DNA of 35,917 bases, taken from positions 12,377 to 48,293 of the forward strand of contig CABVRR010000016.1 in NCBI GenBank assembly GCA_902500705.1, given 5' to 3'. The notes beneath the pieces were generated by a model. The model was not told the origin of the DNA and did no database searches. It saw nothing but the letters and a program-made list of their open reading frames with translations. Shown here piece after piece: positions 10,091 through 13,802 of this stretch (positions are counted from its first letter, which is position 1; each line of letters opens with the position of its first letter). The stretch is from an uncultured Nitrospira sp. GTDB lineage: Bacteria > Nitrospirota > Nitrospiria > Nitrospirales > Nitrospiraceae. The translations under genes were made by a program, and so were the position numbers.

Positions 10091-10465
10091 TCACTGAATC
10101 GAATTGGCAAAGCCTCCTCGCGTGATTTCCGCGCGGACGCGGTCGCCGACTTTCTTCCTCCCGCGTAGGTGTTTGGTTTCGCGGCTGACATAGAGCTGGA
10201 CCTGGTTCCCTTCATAGTCTTCGACGGTGTAGGTCGCACCCGTGATGTGAGTGAGCGTACCGCCGATAATTCTCCATGCGGGACCTGGTTGTCGGTCATG
10301 TCCGTTGTTTGCGGTTCCGTCGGGTGCTTGCTTCACGGTTTCAGTGAACGAACTGGACGCAGTAGGGTTTTCATGCGCTGAGCCTTTTGCGAAGGCCGTT
10401 TCTGTCATGCCGATCATCAAGCCTCCAATCATCAGTGAACACAGCATCGTGTCCTGGTTTGTCAT
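10091..10465 (-). CDS. small secreted protein with OB-fold-like C-terminal domain, hypothetical
   Basis: This 124-residue protein has a signal peptide (MIGGLMIGMTETAFAKG, cleavage after AFA) and a low-complexity Ser/Thr/Asn-rich linker. Its C-terminal domain of about 60 residues has the pattern GGTLTHITGATYTVEDYEG followed by VQLYVSRETK and KVGDRVRAEI. That strand order resembles DUF5666/OB-fold periplasmic domains. AGGAGGG (10471-10477, minus strand) is five bases before the ATG, a very good ribosome-binding site. The function is unknown. It is transcribed away from the radical SAM operon. Its 5' leader probably includes a perfect 14-bp hairpin at 10498-10530 if transcription starts beyond 10530. 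Confidence 0.75.
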   Translation of the reverse strand: MTNQDTMLCSLMIGGLMIGMTETAFAKGSAHENPTASSSFTETVKQAPDGTANNGHDRQPGPAWRIIGGTLTHITGATYTVEDYEGNQVQLYVSRETKHLRGRKKVGDRVRAEITRGGFANSIQ

Positions 10466-10612: not shown

Positions 10613-11671
10613 ATGCTGATACAGATTGACGGAACAGGGGGGCACGCTACCGGGCAGGCGGATGGACTTCCACCTGGAAAGAGATCAAGGCCAAGCCTGG
10701 TTCAAGCCGTATGGGGCGGAGTGGCCAACTTGGTGTTACGGCGGCCGCTTTTGGCGATTTTCCAAGCCTGTCTTCGCTGTAACTCCGCCTGCGGATATTG
10801 CAACCTTCCCTTGAACGAAGGTCGGTACGAAATGTCGCGGCAGGAGATCAAGTCCGTCTTTGGAGATCTCTATCGGAATGGACTTCGTGCGGTATTCGTT
10901 CAAGGTGGAGAACCTCTTCTAAGACGAGGTTTAAAAGAGATACTTCATAATTTAGTTGAGGTTGGTTTCAAGGTCACGCTGATTACGAATGGGACGAAAT
11001 TGACCGCACATCTTGTCGAGGTGTTCGATCACCTCGGGGTCTCCATATCGATCAGTCTGGATACGTTGGATCGGGCCAGGTACGAACGGATTCGGGGTGC
11101 GGATCAACTCGAAGATGTTTTGGCTGGCCTCAATTTGCTGAGCCGCTACCGCCATCCAAAATTTCTGACCGCTATCGTCAGTGAGCTCAATCGAGACGAC
11201 GTCGAGGCTGTCGTCAGATTTGCACAGGAGCAAGGATTCTTGCCGGTCGTCGGAGCCTATCATTGGGATGTCGGCCTCTATGGGAAGCAAGATCAGGCAT
11301 TGATGTATGAACGGGAAAATGCACGACTCGTCTTCGAACAGTTGCTCGAGCATGATCTGCTCCCACCGGGTTATGTTCGACAATATGCCAAGGACAACAT
11401 TGCTTGGCTCAAGGGAGAATCGCTGAAGTCCTGCGACGCGGGCCGGTACAGTATCGCTATCGATGCCTCAGGGAATGTCTCGCCCTGCTTGTCGCTTCCC
11501 GCAGTCGGGAATCTGCTCCACGATTCATTCGATACCATACGTGCTCGATTCGATCGCCAAGCCATTCGATGCTGCTCCGACCGGTCGTCGTGCAATCGAG
11601 TTGATGGGCGAGTGATCGGGTCGGTGCTTCGGCACCCCGTCGCTGCCTGGAGGACACCGATCTCATGGTAA
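10613..11671 (+). CDS. radical SAM protein with SPASM/twitch-like C-terminus
   Basis: This enzyme has about 352 residues and binds a [4Fe-4S] cluster and S-adenosylmethionine through Cys56, Cys60 and Cys63 (CNSACGYC). It also has the radical-SAM barrel motifs VQGGEPLL, LITNGT and SISLDT. The C-terminal part has CDAGRYSIAIDASGNVSPC followed by clustered cysteines (RCCSDRSSC), typical of SPASM/twitch domains that hold an auxiliary cluster and often act on peptides or proteins. The exact reaction is unknown. It lacks the DUF3641 selenodomain of ArsS. ATG 10613 is the best ATG but has no clear ribosome-binding site. TTG 10574 would add 13 residues. It is the first gene of a set with DUF547, ferritin-like and glycosyltransferase genes, 16 bases from the next start. 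Confidence 0.87.
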   Translation: MLIQIDGTGGHATGQADGLPPGKRSRPSLVQAVWGGVANLVLRRPLLAIFQACLRCNSACGYCNLPLNEGRYEMSRQEIKSVFGDLYRNGLRAVFVQGGEPLLRRGLKEILHNLVEVGFKVTLITNGTKLTAHLVEVFDHLGVSISISLDTLDRARYERIRGADQLEDVLAGLNLLSRYRHPKFLTAIVSELNRDDVEAVVRFAQEQGFLPVVGAYHWDVGLYGKQDQALMYERENARLVFEQLLEHDLLPPGYVRQYAKDNIAWLKGESLKSCDAGRYSIAIDASGNVSPCLSLPAVGNLLHDSFDTIRARFDRQAIRCCSDRSSCNRVDGRVIGSVLRHPVAAWRTPISW

Positions 11672-11687
11672 TGAAGGAGGGAGTGTG

Positions 11688-12482
11688 ATGCGGTGGATCC
11701 TCATCGGGCTGGTCATGACGCTCACGGCCTGTTCCAGCGTCCCTACGTCGTTCACTCCCGTCAACCCGTTGTCGGCCGGCGATTTTGCGCATGGATTGTT
11801 GGGGCAGGTCCTCGCTACACATGTCAAAGACGGAGTGGTCGATTATCCCGGCATTCAAGAGGATGATCGACTCGCGGCGTATCTCGCACAACTGGACCGG
11901 GTTGATCCCAATGCGCTTCCTACGCGCCAGGATCGACTGGCCTTTTGGGTCAACGCCTACAATGCATGTGCCATCAAGGGCATTCTTGATCAGTATTCAC
12001 CTAGGAGCTATGTGGGACGGTATCGCTACTTCATCGGACGGGACTATCGAATTGGGGGAGCTCTCCTTAATCTTTATGATCTGGAGCGGCATGTGTTGAT
12101 CAAACAGTTTCAGGAACCACGAATTCATTTTGCCATTGTGTGCGCGTCCGCGTCGTGCCCAAAGCTCCAGTCCTGGGTTTACGAACCCGGCCGACTTGAA
12201 GACCAACTCGATCGTGTCGCCACGGCGTTCATCAACGATCCCATGAAAAATCGTTTCGATCGCAGGGGAAAAATTGCGTCGCTCTCAATGATCTTCAAAT
12301 GGTTTGAAAAAGATTTTTCGATGTCAGCGGGATCGGTGTTGGCGTATGTCGCTCGCTATATCGACGATCCGGACTTGGCACAAGAGCTCGTCCAGCCGGG
12401 GTACCGAATCGAGTTTCTTGAGTATGACTGGAGTTTGAACGGGACCCCACCCAAGGAGCGTGATCATGCTGGTACGTCCTGA
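11688..12482 (+). CDS. DUF547 domain lipoprotein
   Basis: This 264-residue protein has a lipoprotein signal peptide (lipobox LTAC, Cys15) and is therefore anchored to a membrane facing the periplasm or surface. The DUF547 domain is recognised from VDYPGIQ, the FWVNAYNAC motif near residues 86-94, LYDLERHVL and the CASASCPKL motif near 148-156. The family is of unknown function but has a papain-like look, with conserved Asn, His and Cys. AAGGAGGG at 11674-11681 is six bases before ATG 11688, so this start is preferred over GTG 11685. Its 3' end overlaps the next gene by 17 bases, with that gene's ribosome-binding site inside it. DUF547 genes recur near radical SAM and TIGR04283 glycosyltransferase genes in my recollection of bacterial genomes. 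Confidence 0.88.
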   Translation: MRWILIGLVMTLTACSSVPTSFTPVNPLSAGDFAHGLLGQVLATHVKDGVVDYPGIQEDDRLAAYLAQLDRVDPNALPTRQDRLAFWVNAYNACAIKGILDQYSPRSYVGRYRYFIGRDYRIGGALLNLYDLERHVLIKQFQEPRIHFAIVCASASCPKLQSWVYEPGRLEDQLDRVATAFINDPMKNRFDRRGKIASLSMIFKWFEKDFSMSAGSVLAYVARYIDDPDLAQELVQPGYRIEFLEYDWSLNGTPPKERDHAGTS

Positions 12483-13101
12483 TGAGAGGGTGCCGATTGC
12501 TCGGCTCCTGACGTTTTTGGAACAGGGGGAGCGTATGGCGCATGACTGCGCACGAGCTCAGGCGGCGTTGACGGATGATGCGGGACCACGCCGGTTTCTC
12601 ATCAGCCAATCACGGCAAGAAGCCATGCATGCGGTCGTGTTTCAGGGGGCGATCGCGTGGCTGGCCTCAAAACATCTTGGAGACGCGCCGTTCTTGCCGG
12701 CCTTCGAGGAATACCGAAAACTTCTCGACGAGGCGGTGAGGAGTCGTAACTTGGTTGAAACCTACCTGGCCGAGCAGGTCGTGCTCGAAGGGTTGGGCGA
12801 AGCCGTTCTCACACGTATGGAGCGAGGATTGGCCAAACGCGCGGCGCCATTCGGTCGGCTGCGCCGTATCTTGCTTCATCAAGAGCACGCGCATCACGGC
12901 TTCGGTCTTCGTCAACTGGAGCGAGCCATCGATCGTGGCGAAACAGATCGCGCGGCTCTTCGACAACAAGCACAACGCTATCTGGACTTGACCGATTCGA
13001 TGGTCTGCGCGTTGTGCGATCTCTTCGACAGCATCGATGAGGACGCGGGTGCTTGGGCTGCCGATGTCCGAACGTTTCTGCCGCAGTGGGTGGTCGCATG
13101 A
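12466..13101 (+). CDS. ferritin-like diiron four-helix protein
   Basis: This 211-residue, almost entirely helical soluble protein has spaced Glu and ExxH motifs matching a carboxylate-bridged diiron site: Glu19 or Glu22, Glu52-x-x-His55, Glu103 and Glu140-x-x-His143 (HQEHAHH). That is the ferritin/oxygenase pattern, so it may be an oxidase or oxygenase using O2, or a metal-binding protein. I do not recognise the specific family. AAGGAG at 12453-12458 supports ATG 12466 over GTG 12460. It overlaps the DUF547 gene by 17 bases, and its stop overlaps the glycosyltransferase start as ATGA. This tight coupling indicates that the three products work together. The pairing of a radical SAM enzyme and a diiron protein in one operon suggests modification of a common substrate. 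Confidence 0.7.
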   Translation: MLVRPDERVPIARLLTFLEQGERMAHDCARAQAALTDDAGPRRFLISQSRQEAMHAVVFQGAIAWLASKHLGDAPFLPAFEEYRKLLDEAVRSRNLVETYLAEQVVLEGLGEAVLTRMERGLAKRAAPFGRLRRILLHQEHAHHGFGLRQLERAIDRGETDRAALRQQAQRYLDLTDSMVCALCDLFDSIDEDAGAWAADVRTFLPQWVVA

Positions 13102-13802
13102 TCTCCGTCGTGATGCCGACCTACAATGAAGAGACCGTACTACCGGGCAACCTTCACGCGTTGTGCACGCAATCTGGGGATTATGAAGTACTGGTAGTGG
13201 ACGGAGGAAGCACCGATCGGACCCGTGAGGTGGTCATGGATTTCACCCGCAACACTCAGCACTCGAGGCTCGGAGTGGTTCGGCTCTTGACTGCCCCTAA
13301 AGGTCGTGCGTCTCAAATGAATGCCGGTGCGAAAGAAGCCCGTGGTGAATGGCTGCTCTTTCTCCATGCCGATACGGTCTTGCCGCATCGAGCCGTGCAA
13401 CGGCTGAACAAGCTTGAAGCGGACCATGACGTTCAGGCCGGTGGTTTTATGCACCGATTCTCGGGGGATGATTGGCGATTGAGGCTTATCTCCTTCCTCG
13501 ACAACTTCCGCTGTACCCGCAGCCGCATCATTTATGGTGATCAGGCGCTTTTTGTCCGCCGTGCGCTCTTTGAGCAATTGGGTGGGTTCCCCCAACAACC
13601 GATCCTGGAAGATGTTGTCTTTTGTGAACGGCTTATCAGAGTGACCACCCCGTTGTTGCTCACCCCTCCGGTGGTCACTGATTCCCGCAAGTTCATCAAG
13701 ATGGGGATTTGGAGCAGCTTTATCCGTGTCCTGCTGATCATTCTCCATGTCGAGTTCCGTGTACCGGTCCTTCCTAGAGCGTTTTTTCAGGACATACGGT
13801 AA
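13098..13802 (+). CDS. family 2 glycosyltransferase, TIGR04283-like (rSAM/selenodomain-associated)
   Basis: This 234-residue GT-A fold glycosyltransferase opens with ISVVMPTYNEE. VVDGGSTDRT follows and then FLHADTVLP, which includes the metal-binding DxD-like element. The diagnostic YGDQALFVRR, GGFPQQPILED and DSRKF blocks come next, and the C-terminus is hydrophobic. This pattern matches the small TIGR04283 family, named for its association with radical SAM/selenodomain genes and annotated in arsenosugar biosynthesis contexts. The donor and acceptor are unknown. The ATG lies in an ATGA overlap with the diiron protein stop. The partner nucleotidyltransferase TIGR04282 and the ArsS selenodomain are not in the window, so an arsenosugar role is not established. 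It is the last gene of the operon. Confidence 0.85.
   Translation: MISVVMPTYNEETVLPGNLHALCTQSGDYEVLVVDGGSTDRTREVVMDFTRNTQHSRLGVVRLLTAPKGRASQMNAGAKEARGEWLLFLHADTVLPHRAVQRLNKLEADHDVQAGGFMHRFSGDDWRLRLISFLDNFRCTRSRIIYGDQALFVRRALFEQLGGFPQQPILEDVVFCERLIRVTTPLLLTPPVVTDSRKFIKMGIWSSFIRVLLIILHVEFRVPVLPRAFFQDIR

Follow-up and report, generated by a model that had tools for sequence, protein, structure and literature searches.

The window, a 35,917-nucleotide stretch of DNA from an uncultured Nitrospira sp., carries four adjacent genes for a radical SAM (rSAM) enzyme, a DUF547 lipoprotein, a diiron protein and a small glycosyltransferase (GT), and these raise the question of whether they work together and, if so, on what. 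Nitrospira are major nitrite oxidizers, and the genome encodes an AMO-family protein, so its organism is probably comammox. To our knowledge, few specialized metabolites have been described from the group.

Layout of the Gene Block

The four reading frames lie head to tail on one strand in the order rSAM, DUF547, diiron, GT (Table 1). The rSAM stop is 16 nt from the DUF547 start, with aaggagg upstream of the latter. The DUF547 and diiron genes overlap by 17 nt, the aaggag of the diiron gene lying inside the DUF547 gene, and the diiron and GT genes overlap by 4 nt (ATGA). These coordinates confirm the initial annotation, which had described a head-to-tail block with these two overlaps. Dozens of genomes share both the order of the genes and the overlap of 17 nt, which puts the arrangement beyond chance. 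Divergently from the block runs a gene for a small exported protein that matches no Pfam family. It has a relative in the corresponding divergent position at 39 of 54 loci, which makes it a conserved neighbor whose part in the cluster is unproven.

Table 1. Genes of the block and its divergent neighbor, in window coordinates.
Feature	Position	Strand	Basis
Small exported protein, 124 aa, divergent neighbor	10091..10465	-	no Pfam match
Radical SAM enzyme with SPASM-like C-terminal domain, 352 aa	10613..11671	+	PF04055 and PF13186 above cut-off
DUF547 lipoprotein, 264 aa	11688..12482	+	PF04784; lipobox LTAC, C15 as lipidation site
ADO-like ferritin-fold diiron protein (predicted), 211 aa	12466..13101	+	model, ADO fold match, aligned ligands
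GT2 glycosyltransferase, 234 aa	13098..13802	+	TIGR04283; own clade

Conservation and Co-Occurrence

Scanning bacterial and archaeal species genomes with an alignment of the diiron protein returned 80 loci, nearly all from Nitrospira or other Nitrospirales. The exceptions by title are two loci from Nitrospinota, two from Nitrosospira and one from Verrucomicrobiota, and these may be mislabelled or contaminated. Loci with over 3.5 kb of flank on the left and 1.5 kb on the right counted as fully flanked. Among the 56 such loci, the diiron gene is accompanied by the GT in 55, by DUF547 in 54 and by rSAM in 45, so the homologs mostly occur in company, in keeping with the initial annotation. The commonest order is rSAM-DUF547-diiron-GT (51 of the 80 loci, contig ends included). 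In the more distant Nitrospirales, it is often DUF547-rSAM-diiron-GT, or the rSAM gene is absent.

The same association appears at the level of whole genomes, given here, as are all our co-occurrence figures, in raw counts over related genomes that ignore kinship. A whole-genome search finds the diiron gene in 21 of 59 relatives. When the cluster-type GT, DUF547 and rSAM proteins are separated from their paralogs by score, they are present in 20, 20 and 18 of these 21, respectively, and in none of the 38 diiron-negative relatives. One of the GTs is split across two contigs, and the missing one falls at a contig end. A sample of 296 genomes across the phylum gave 48 diiron matches, 47 within the order and 1 distant. 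Of its 39 rSAM matches (E 1e-30 or better), 38 are in diiron-positive genomes. The lone diiron-negative match, in G297, is a fragment of ~71 residues, and the 12 kb examined there holds none of the other cluster genes.

Co-occurrence rules out chance adjacency of the four genes. Linkage, conserved order and whole-genome co-occurrence together support the initial idea of a single functional unit, and the four genes are very probably linked in function. On our reading, the locus is restricted to Nitrospiria and is gained or lost as a block. A tie to ammonia oxidation is unsupported; within the genus, 12 of the 20 AMO-positive genomes carry the cluster, as do 6 of the 15 that are AMO-negative. 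Three genomes (L040, L044 and G076:C81) have a diiron gene that looks disrupted although other genes of the cluster persist, which counts against the function proposed below. The lesions are a frameshift, an in-frame deletion of ligand-bearing helices, or both, and reflect either decay or assembly error.

The Diiron Protein

The diiron protein passes the cut-off of no Pfam or NCBIfam family, and sequence searches of Pfam, NCBIfam, PHROGs, PDB sequences and plasmids gave nothing convincing about its function. An AlphaFold2 model was built from 52 relatives (pLDDT 89, pTM 0.86), and it predicts the helical bundle of the ferritin-like diiron-carboxylate superfamily. The best Foldseek matches in the PDB are to cyanobacterial aldehyde-deformylating oxygenase (ADO), with which cyanobacteria make hydrocarbons, the first at E 7e-4 with TM 0.79 and the first five reaching TM 0.82. 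VIA-align superposes the model on ADO with Z up to 23.0 and rmsd 2.5 over 202 residues, and on R2lox and RNR-R2 with Z of ~20 and ~19. The likeness to ADO extends along the entire protein.

The metal ligands of ADO are E32, E60, H63, E115, E144 and H147 (PMC4286721). In a profile alignment that included the S. elongatus ADO sequence, identical to PDB 4quw over its full 231 residues, these six fall on E22, E52, H55, E108, E140 and H143, each of which is invariant in 52 sequences. The hhalign comparison of the diiron protein with ADO (E 0.066) is not significant alone and agrees with the fold match. The initial annotation had listed E52, H55, E103, E140 and H143. Four of these stand, E22 was missed, and E103 is probably wrong, because the alignment places E108 opposite ADO E115; E103 is invariant yet does not align there. 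At the level of fold and alignment, as distinct from coordinates, the model thus passes the check for a metal site. The predicted site is well supported, with its fourth carboxylate assigned by alignment, and judging from the model the protein is highly likely to hold a working diiron center.

The sub-threshold Pfam matches obtained with the 52 members point mainly to diiron families, namely RNR-R2, COQ7, phenol hydroxylase, ADO and MiaE. None passes the curated cut-off of the ADO family itself (PF11266): the window protein has no match to it, and one of the 52 members has a match at E 0.0027. A remote homolog from another Nitrospirota family weakly matches DUF455, AurF and MiaE_2. A diiron paralog also lies outside the cluster in L097, L099 and L150, beside a PEP-synthase-like protein and a CarS-like membrane protein, and the L150 genome holds a clustered copy as well.

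The Radical SAM Protein

The rSAM protein scores 87.6 bits to PF04055 and 25.3 bits to the SPASM family PF13186 (cut-off 21.5). Its CX3CX2C motif at C56/C60/C63 places it in the radical SAM superfamily. Four further cysteines (C274, C292, C321 and C327) are invariant in 58 of 58 sequences, against the seven of a full SPASM domain with two auxiliary clusters, and they would probably serve one such cluster. The earlier description as radical SAM/SPASM-like is therefore right as to the Pfam domains, both above cut-off, and would be wrong if read as full SPASM.

The initial annotation also treated the rSAM gene as a fixed member, and this does not hold. Of the 56 fully flanked loci, 11 have no rSAM gene next to the diiron gene, and in the phylum sample 10 of the 48 genomes with a diiron match gave no rSAM match. 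One of the 11 loci is from N. moscoviensis (L080), whose complete genome has the DUF547, diiron and GT genes with no adjoining rSAM gene, and L087 retains only scraps of one. Since rSAM is missing from about a fifth of the loci, the core is DUF547-diiron-GT and the rSAM gene is an accessory, facultative member. It follows that not every version of the cluster can depend on radical chemistry. Two loci have a methyltransferase gene between rSAM and DUF547 (L101:6020-7018 and L121:3819-4847, 53% identical to each other), possibly an extra tailoring enzyme.

The DUF547 Lipoprotein

The DUF547 protein scores 94 bits to PF04784 (cut-off 27). With this score and its lipobox, and with the GT above the TIGR04283 cut-off, both assignments made initially stand. 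Its invariant residues are C15, H147, C152 and C157, the last three of which are common to distant DUF547 proteins too; we would guess from this pattern that H147, C152 and C157 are catalytic or metal-binding. A model of the protein (window 11730-12479, pLDDT 90.7) has no useful match in the PDB, the best Foldseek hit being at E 2.7. The 14-3-3 proteins offered by VIA-align were rejected, as the best Z of 4.8 is not meaningful.

We know of no function for DUF547, and the literature we found on it is almost all on plants. Our searches found no papers joining DUF547 to arsenosugar, none on TIGR04283, and none joining Nitrospira to radical SAM and arsenic. In Acinetobacter, Burkholderia and Roseomonas plasmids, DUF547 genes adjoin ArsS, TIGR04283 or TIGR04282 genes, and also other radical SAM genes. 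Directly beside DUF547 in Burkholderia glumae and Roseomonas plasmids (L155:12478-14675 and L158:12939-16117) is a different radical SAM gene of ~460 aa, and these pairs lie near ArsS or TIGR04282 genes. The pairing of DUF547 with a radical SAM gene thus recurs.

The Glycosyltransferase and the Arsenosugar Question

The cluster GT passes the TIGR04283 cut-off of 182 with 214.2 bits. In a tree of 29 sequences, however, the cluster GTs form one clade (support 100/100), separate from the canonical TIGR04283 copy of the same genome, and its stem is 2.65 changes per site long. The arsenosugar label therefore comes from profile similarity only and is not to be trusted. The initial annotation reported ArsS and TIGR04282 as absent. 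This is correct for the window and not for the genome, which has ArsS on another contig (G000:C90) and, side by side on a third (G000:C57), a canonical TIGR04283 and TIGR04282. The contrast it drew with a canonical arsenosugar locus survives, given the distinct GT clade and the location of those genes on other contigs; the GT of the block is flanked by members of other families instead.

Nevertheless, the block could be a side branch of arsenosugar or arsenolipid synthesis, further modifying the product of the genome's own ArsS/TIGR04283/TIGR04282 set. The profile score of the GT and the presence of ArsS and TIGR04282 elsewhere in the genome are compatible with this, and it is kept alive by plasmids of Acinetobacter and Burkholderia in which DUF547 sits within an ArsS locus. 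On the other hand, ArsS scores above its cut-off in 52 of the 59 relatives and TIGR04282 in 56, with or without the cluster; being nearly universal, ArsS shows no specific link to it. The canonical TIGR04283 already adjoins TIGR04282, and the cluster GT stands apart on its long stem. We therefore consider the arsenic side branch unlikely.

Proposed Function and Alternatives

Our explanation is that the block is a Nitrospiria-restricted biosynthetic tailoring locus, for O2-dependent oxidation and glycosylation of a probably hydrophobic product that is then handled at the envelope. As a whole, we give this roughly an even chance. Where present, the radical SAM enzyme would modify the substrate first. 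The diiron enzyme would then carry out an O2-dependent hydroxylation or cleavage of an aliphatic substrate in the cytoplasm, as the ADO/R2lox/COQ7-like fold suggests. The GT would place a sugar on the group created by that step. Finally, the DUF547 lipoprotein, which its lipobox would put at the periplasmic face of a membrane, may receive, mature or retain the product. The substrate is proposed to be hydrophobic because ADO has a hydrophobic channel that holds a long-chain fatty alcohol, acid or aldehyde (PMC4286721). Several points weigh against the proposal: a fold does not fix a substrate, the sequence match to ADO is not significant alone, R2lox and RNR-R2 score only slightly below ADO, the rSAM gene is often missing, and the conserved block contains no lipid, polyketide or peptide substrate gene. 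The most likely product would be a modified glycolipid or lipid-like small molecule, an identification of its lipid-like nature that we offer only tentatively.

SPASM-type radical SAM enzymes are frequent peptide modifiers, and so a RiPP or metallophore pathway, in which a ribosomal peptide is modified, possibly with bufferin-type genes, also has to be weighed. Several Nitrospirales loci have same-strand genes for an MNIO (PF05114), a DUF2063 protein and a small Cys-rich protein between DUF547 and rSAM/diiron. Within the Nitrospiraceae loci examined, however, no MNIO-type gene was seen in the cluster, and the rSAM protein passes no RiPP maturase cut-off. No precursor peptide is conserved within 700 bp upstream and 600 bp downstream, where the only conserved small frame is that of the divergent exported protein; a more distant precursor is possible. 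We rate this pathway as unlikely. The bufferin-like set (MNIO, DUF2063 and usually a small Cys-rich exported protein) was seen within the cluster or next to it, in the same orientation, in L112, L116, L117, L119 and L121, and in part in L109 and L115.

That the diiron protein acts on a cellular target such as tRNA or quinone and is merely co-regulated with its neighbors would accord with its weak MiaE_2, COQ7 and R2 similarities and with the unclustered paralogs in three genomes, but the diiron gene and GT are almost never apart (55 of 56 loci have both) and their reading frames frequently overlap. Genes of unrelated function would hardly be expected to do so, which makes this very unlikely.

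Returning to the tailoring locus, we find it plausible, at somewhat less than even confidence, that a new diiron-oxygenase family, with an ADO fold and a different reaction, makes an envelope natural product of Nitrospira together with a dedicated GT, an optional radical SAM enzyme and DUF547. Within reach of our searches, the gene block is undescribed, while its superfamilies are each known already. It adds a diiron family that is unnamed in Pfam and NCBIfam, and it is a context in which DUF547 could gain a function. It also cautions against reading arsenosugar synthesis into every TIGR04283 annotation. With an all-or-nothing distribution across close relatives, the block lends itself to comparative metabolomics.

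Comparison with Known Systems

Arsenosugar loci (ArsS, TIGR04283, TIGR04282, DUF547) resemble the cluster in that a TIGR04283-type GT and DUF547 occur together in Acinetobacter. The cluster differs in lacking ArsS and TIGR04282 and in having a GT of a distinct clade, and its diiron protein has not been seen in arsenosugar loci. Mycofactocin-type clusters also combine a SPASM-type radical SAM enzyme with a GT2, and the TIGR04283 profile is in fact named glyco_like_mftF. However, no precursor peptide was found near our cluster, and its GT scores only 50.5 to MftF, where the cut-off is 280. The R2-like ligand-binding oxidase (R2lox) and ribonucleotide reductase R2 belong to the same diiron ferritin-like superfamily as the diiron protein, but both are longer, and their fold scores (Z ~20 and ~19) are below that of ADO. 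The best fold match is ADO (PF11266). It agrees with the diiron protein in length, in the fold predicted across 202 residues (Z 23) and in all six metal ligands. The two are only 15-19% identical, with no significant sequence match and no Pfam match, and they keep different company: the partner of ADO is acyl-ACP reductase, whereas the neighbors of the diiron protein are rSAM, DUF547 and GT.
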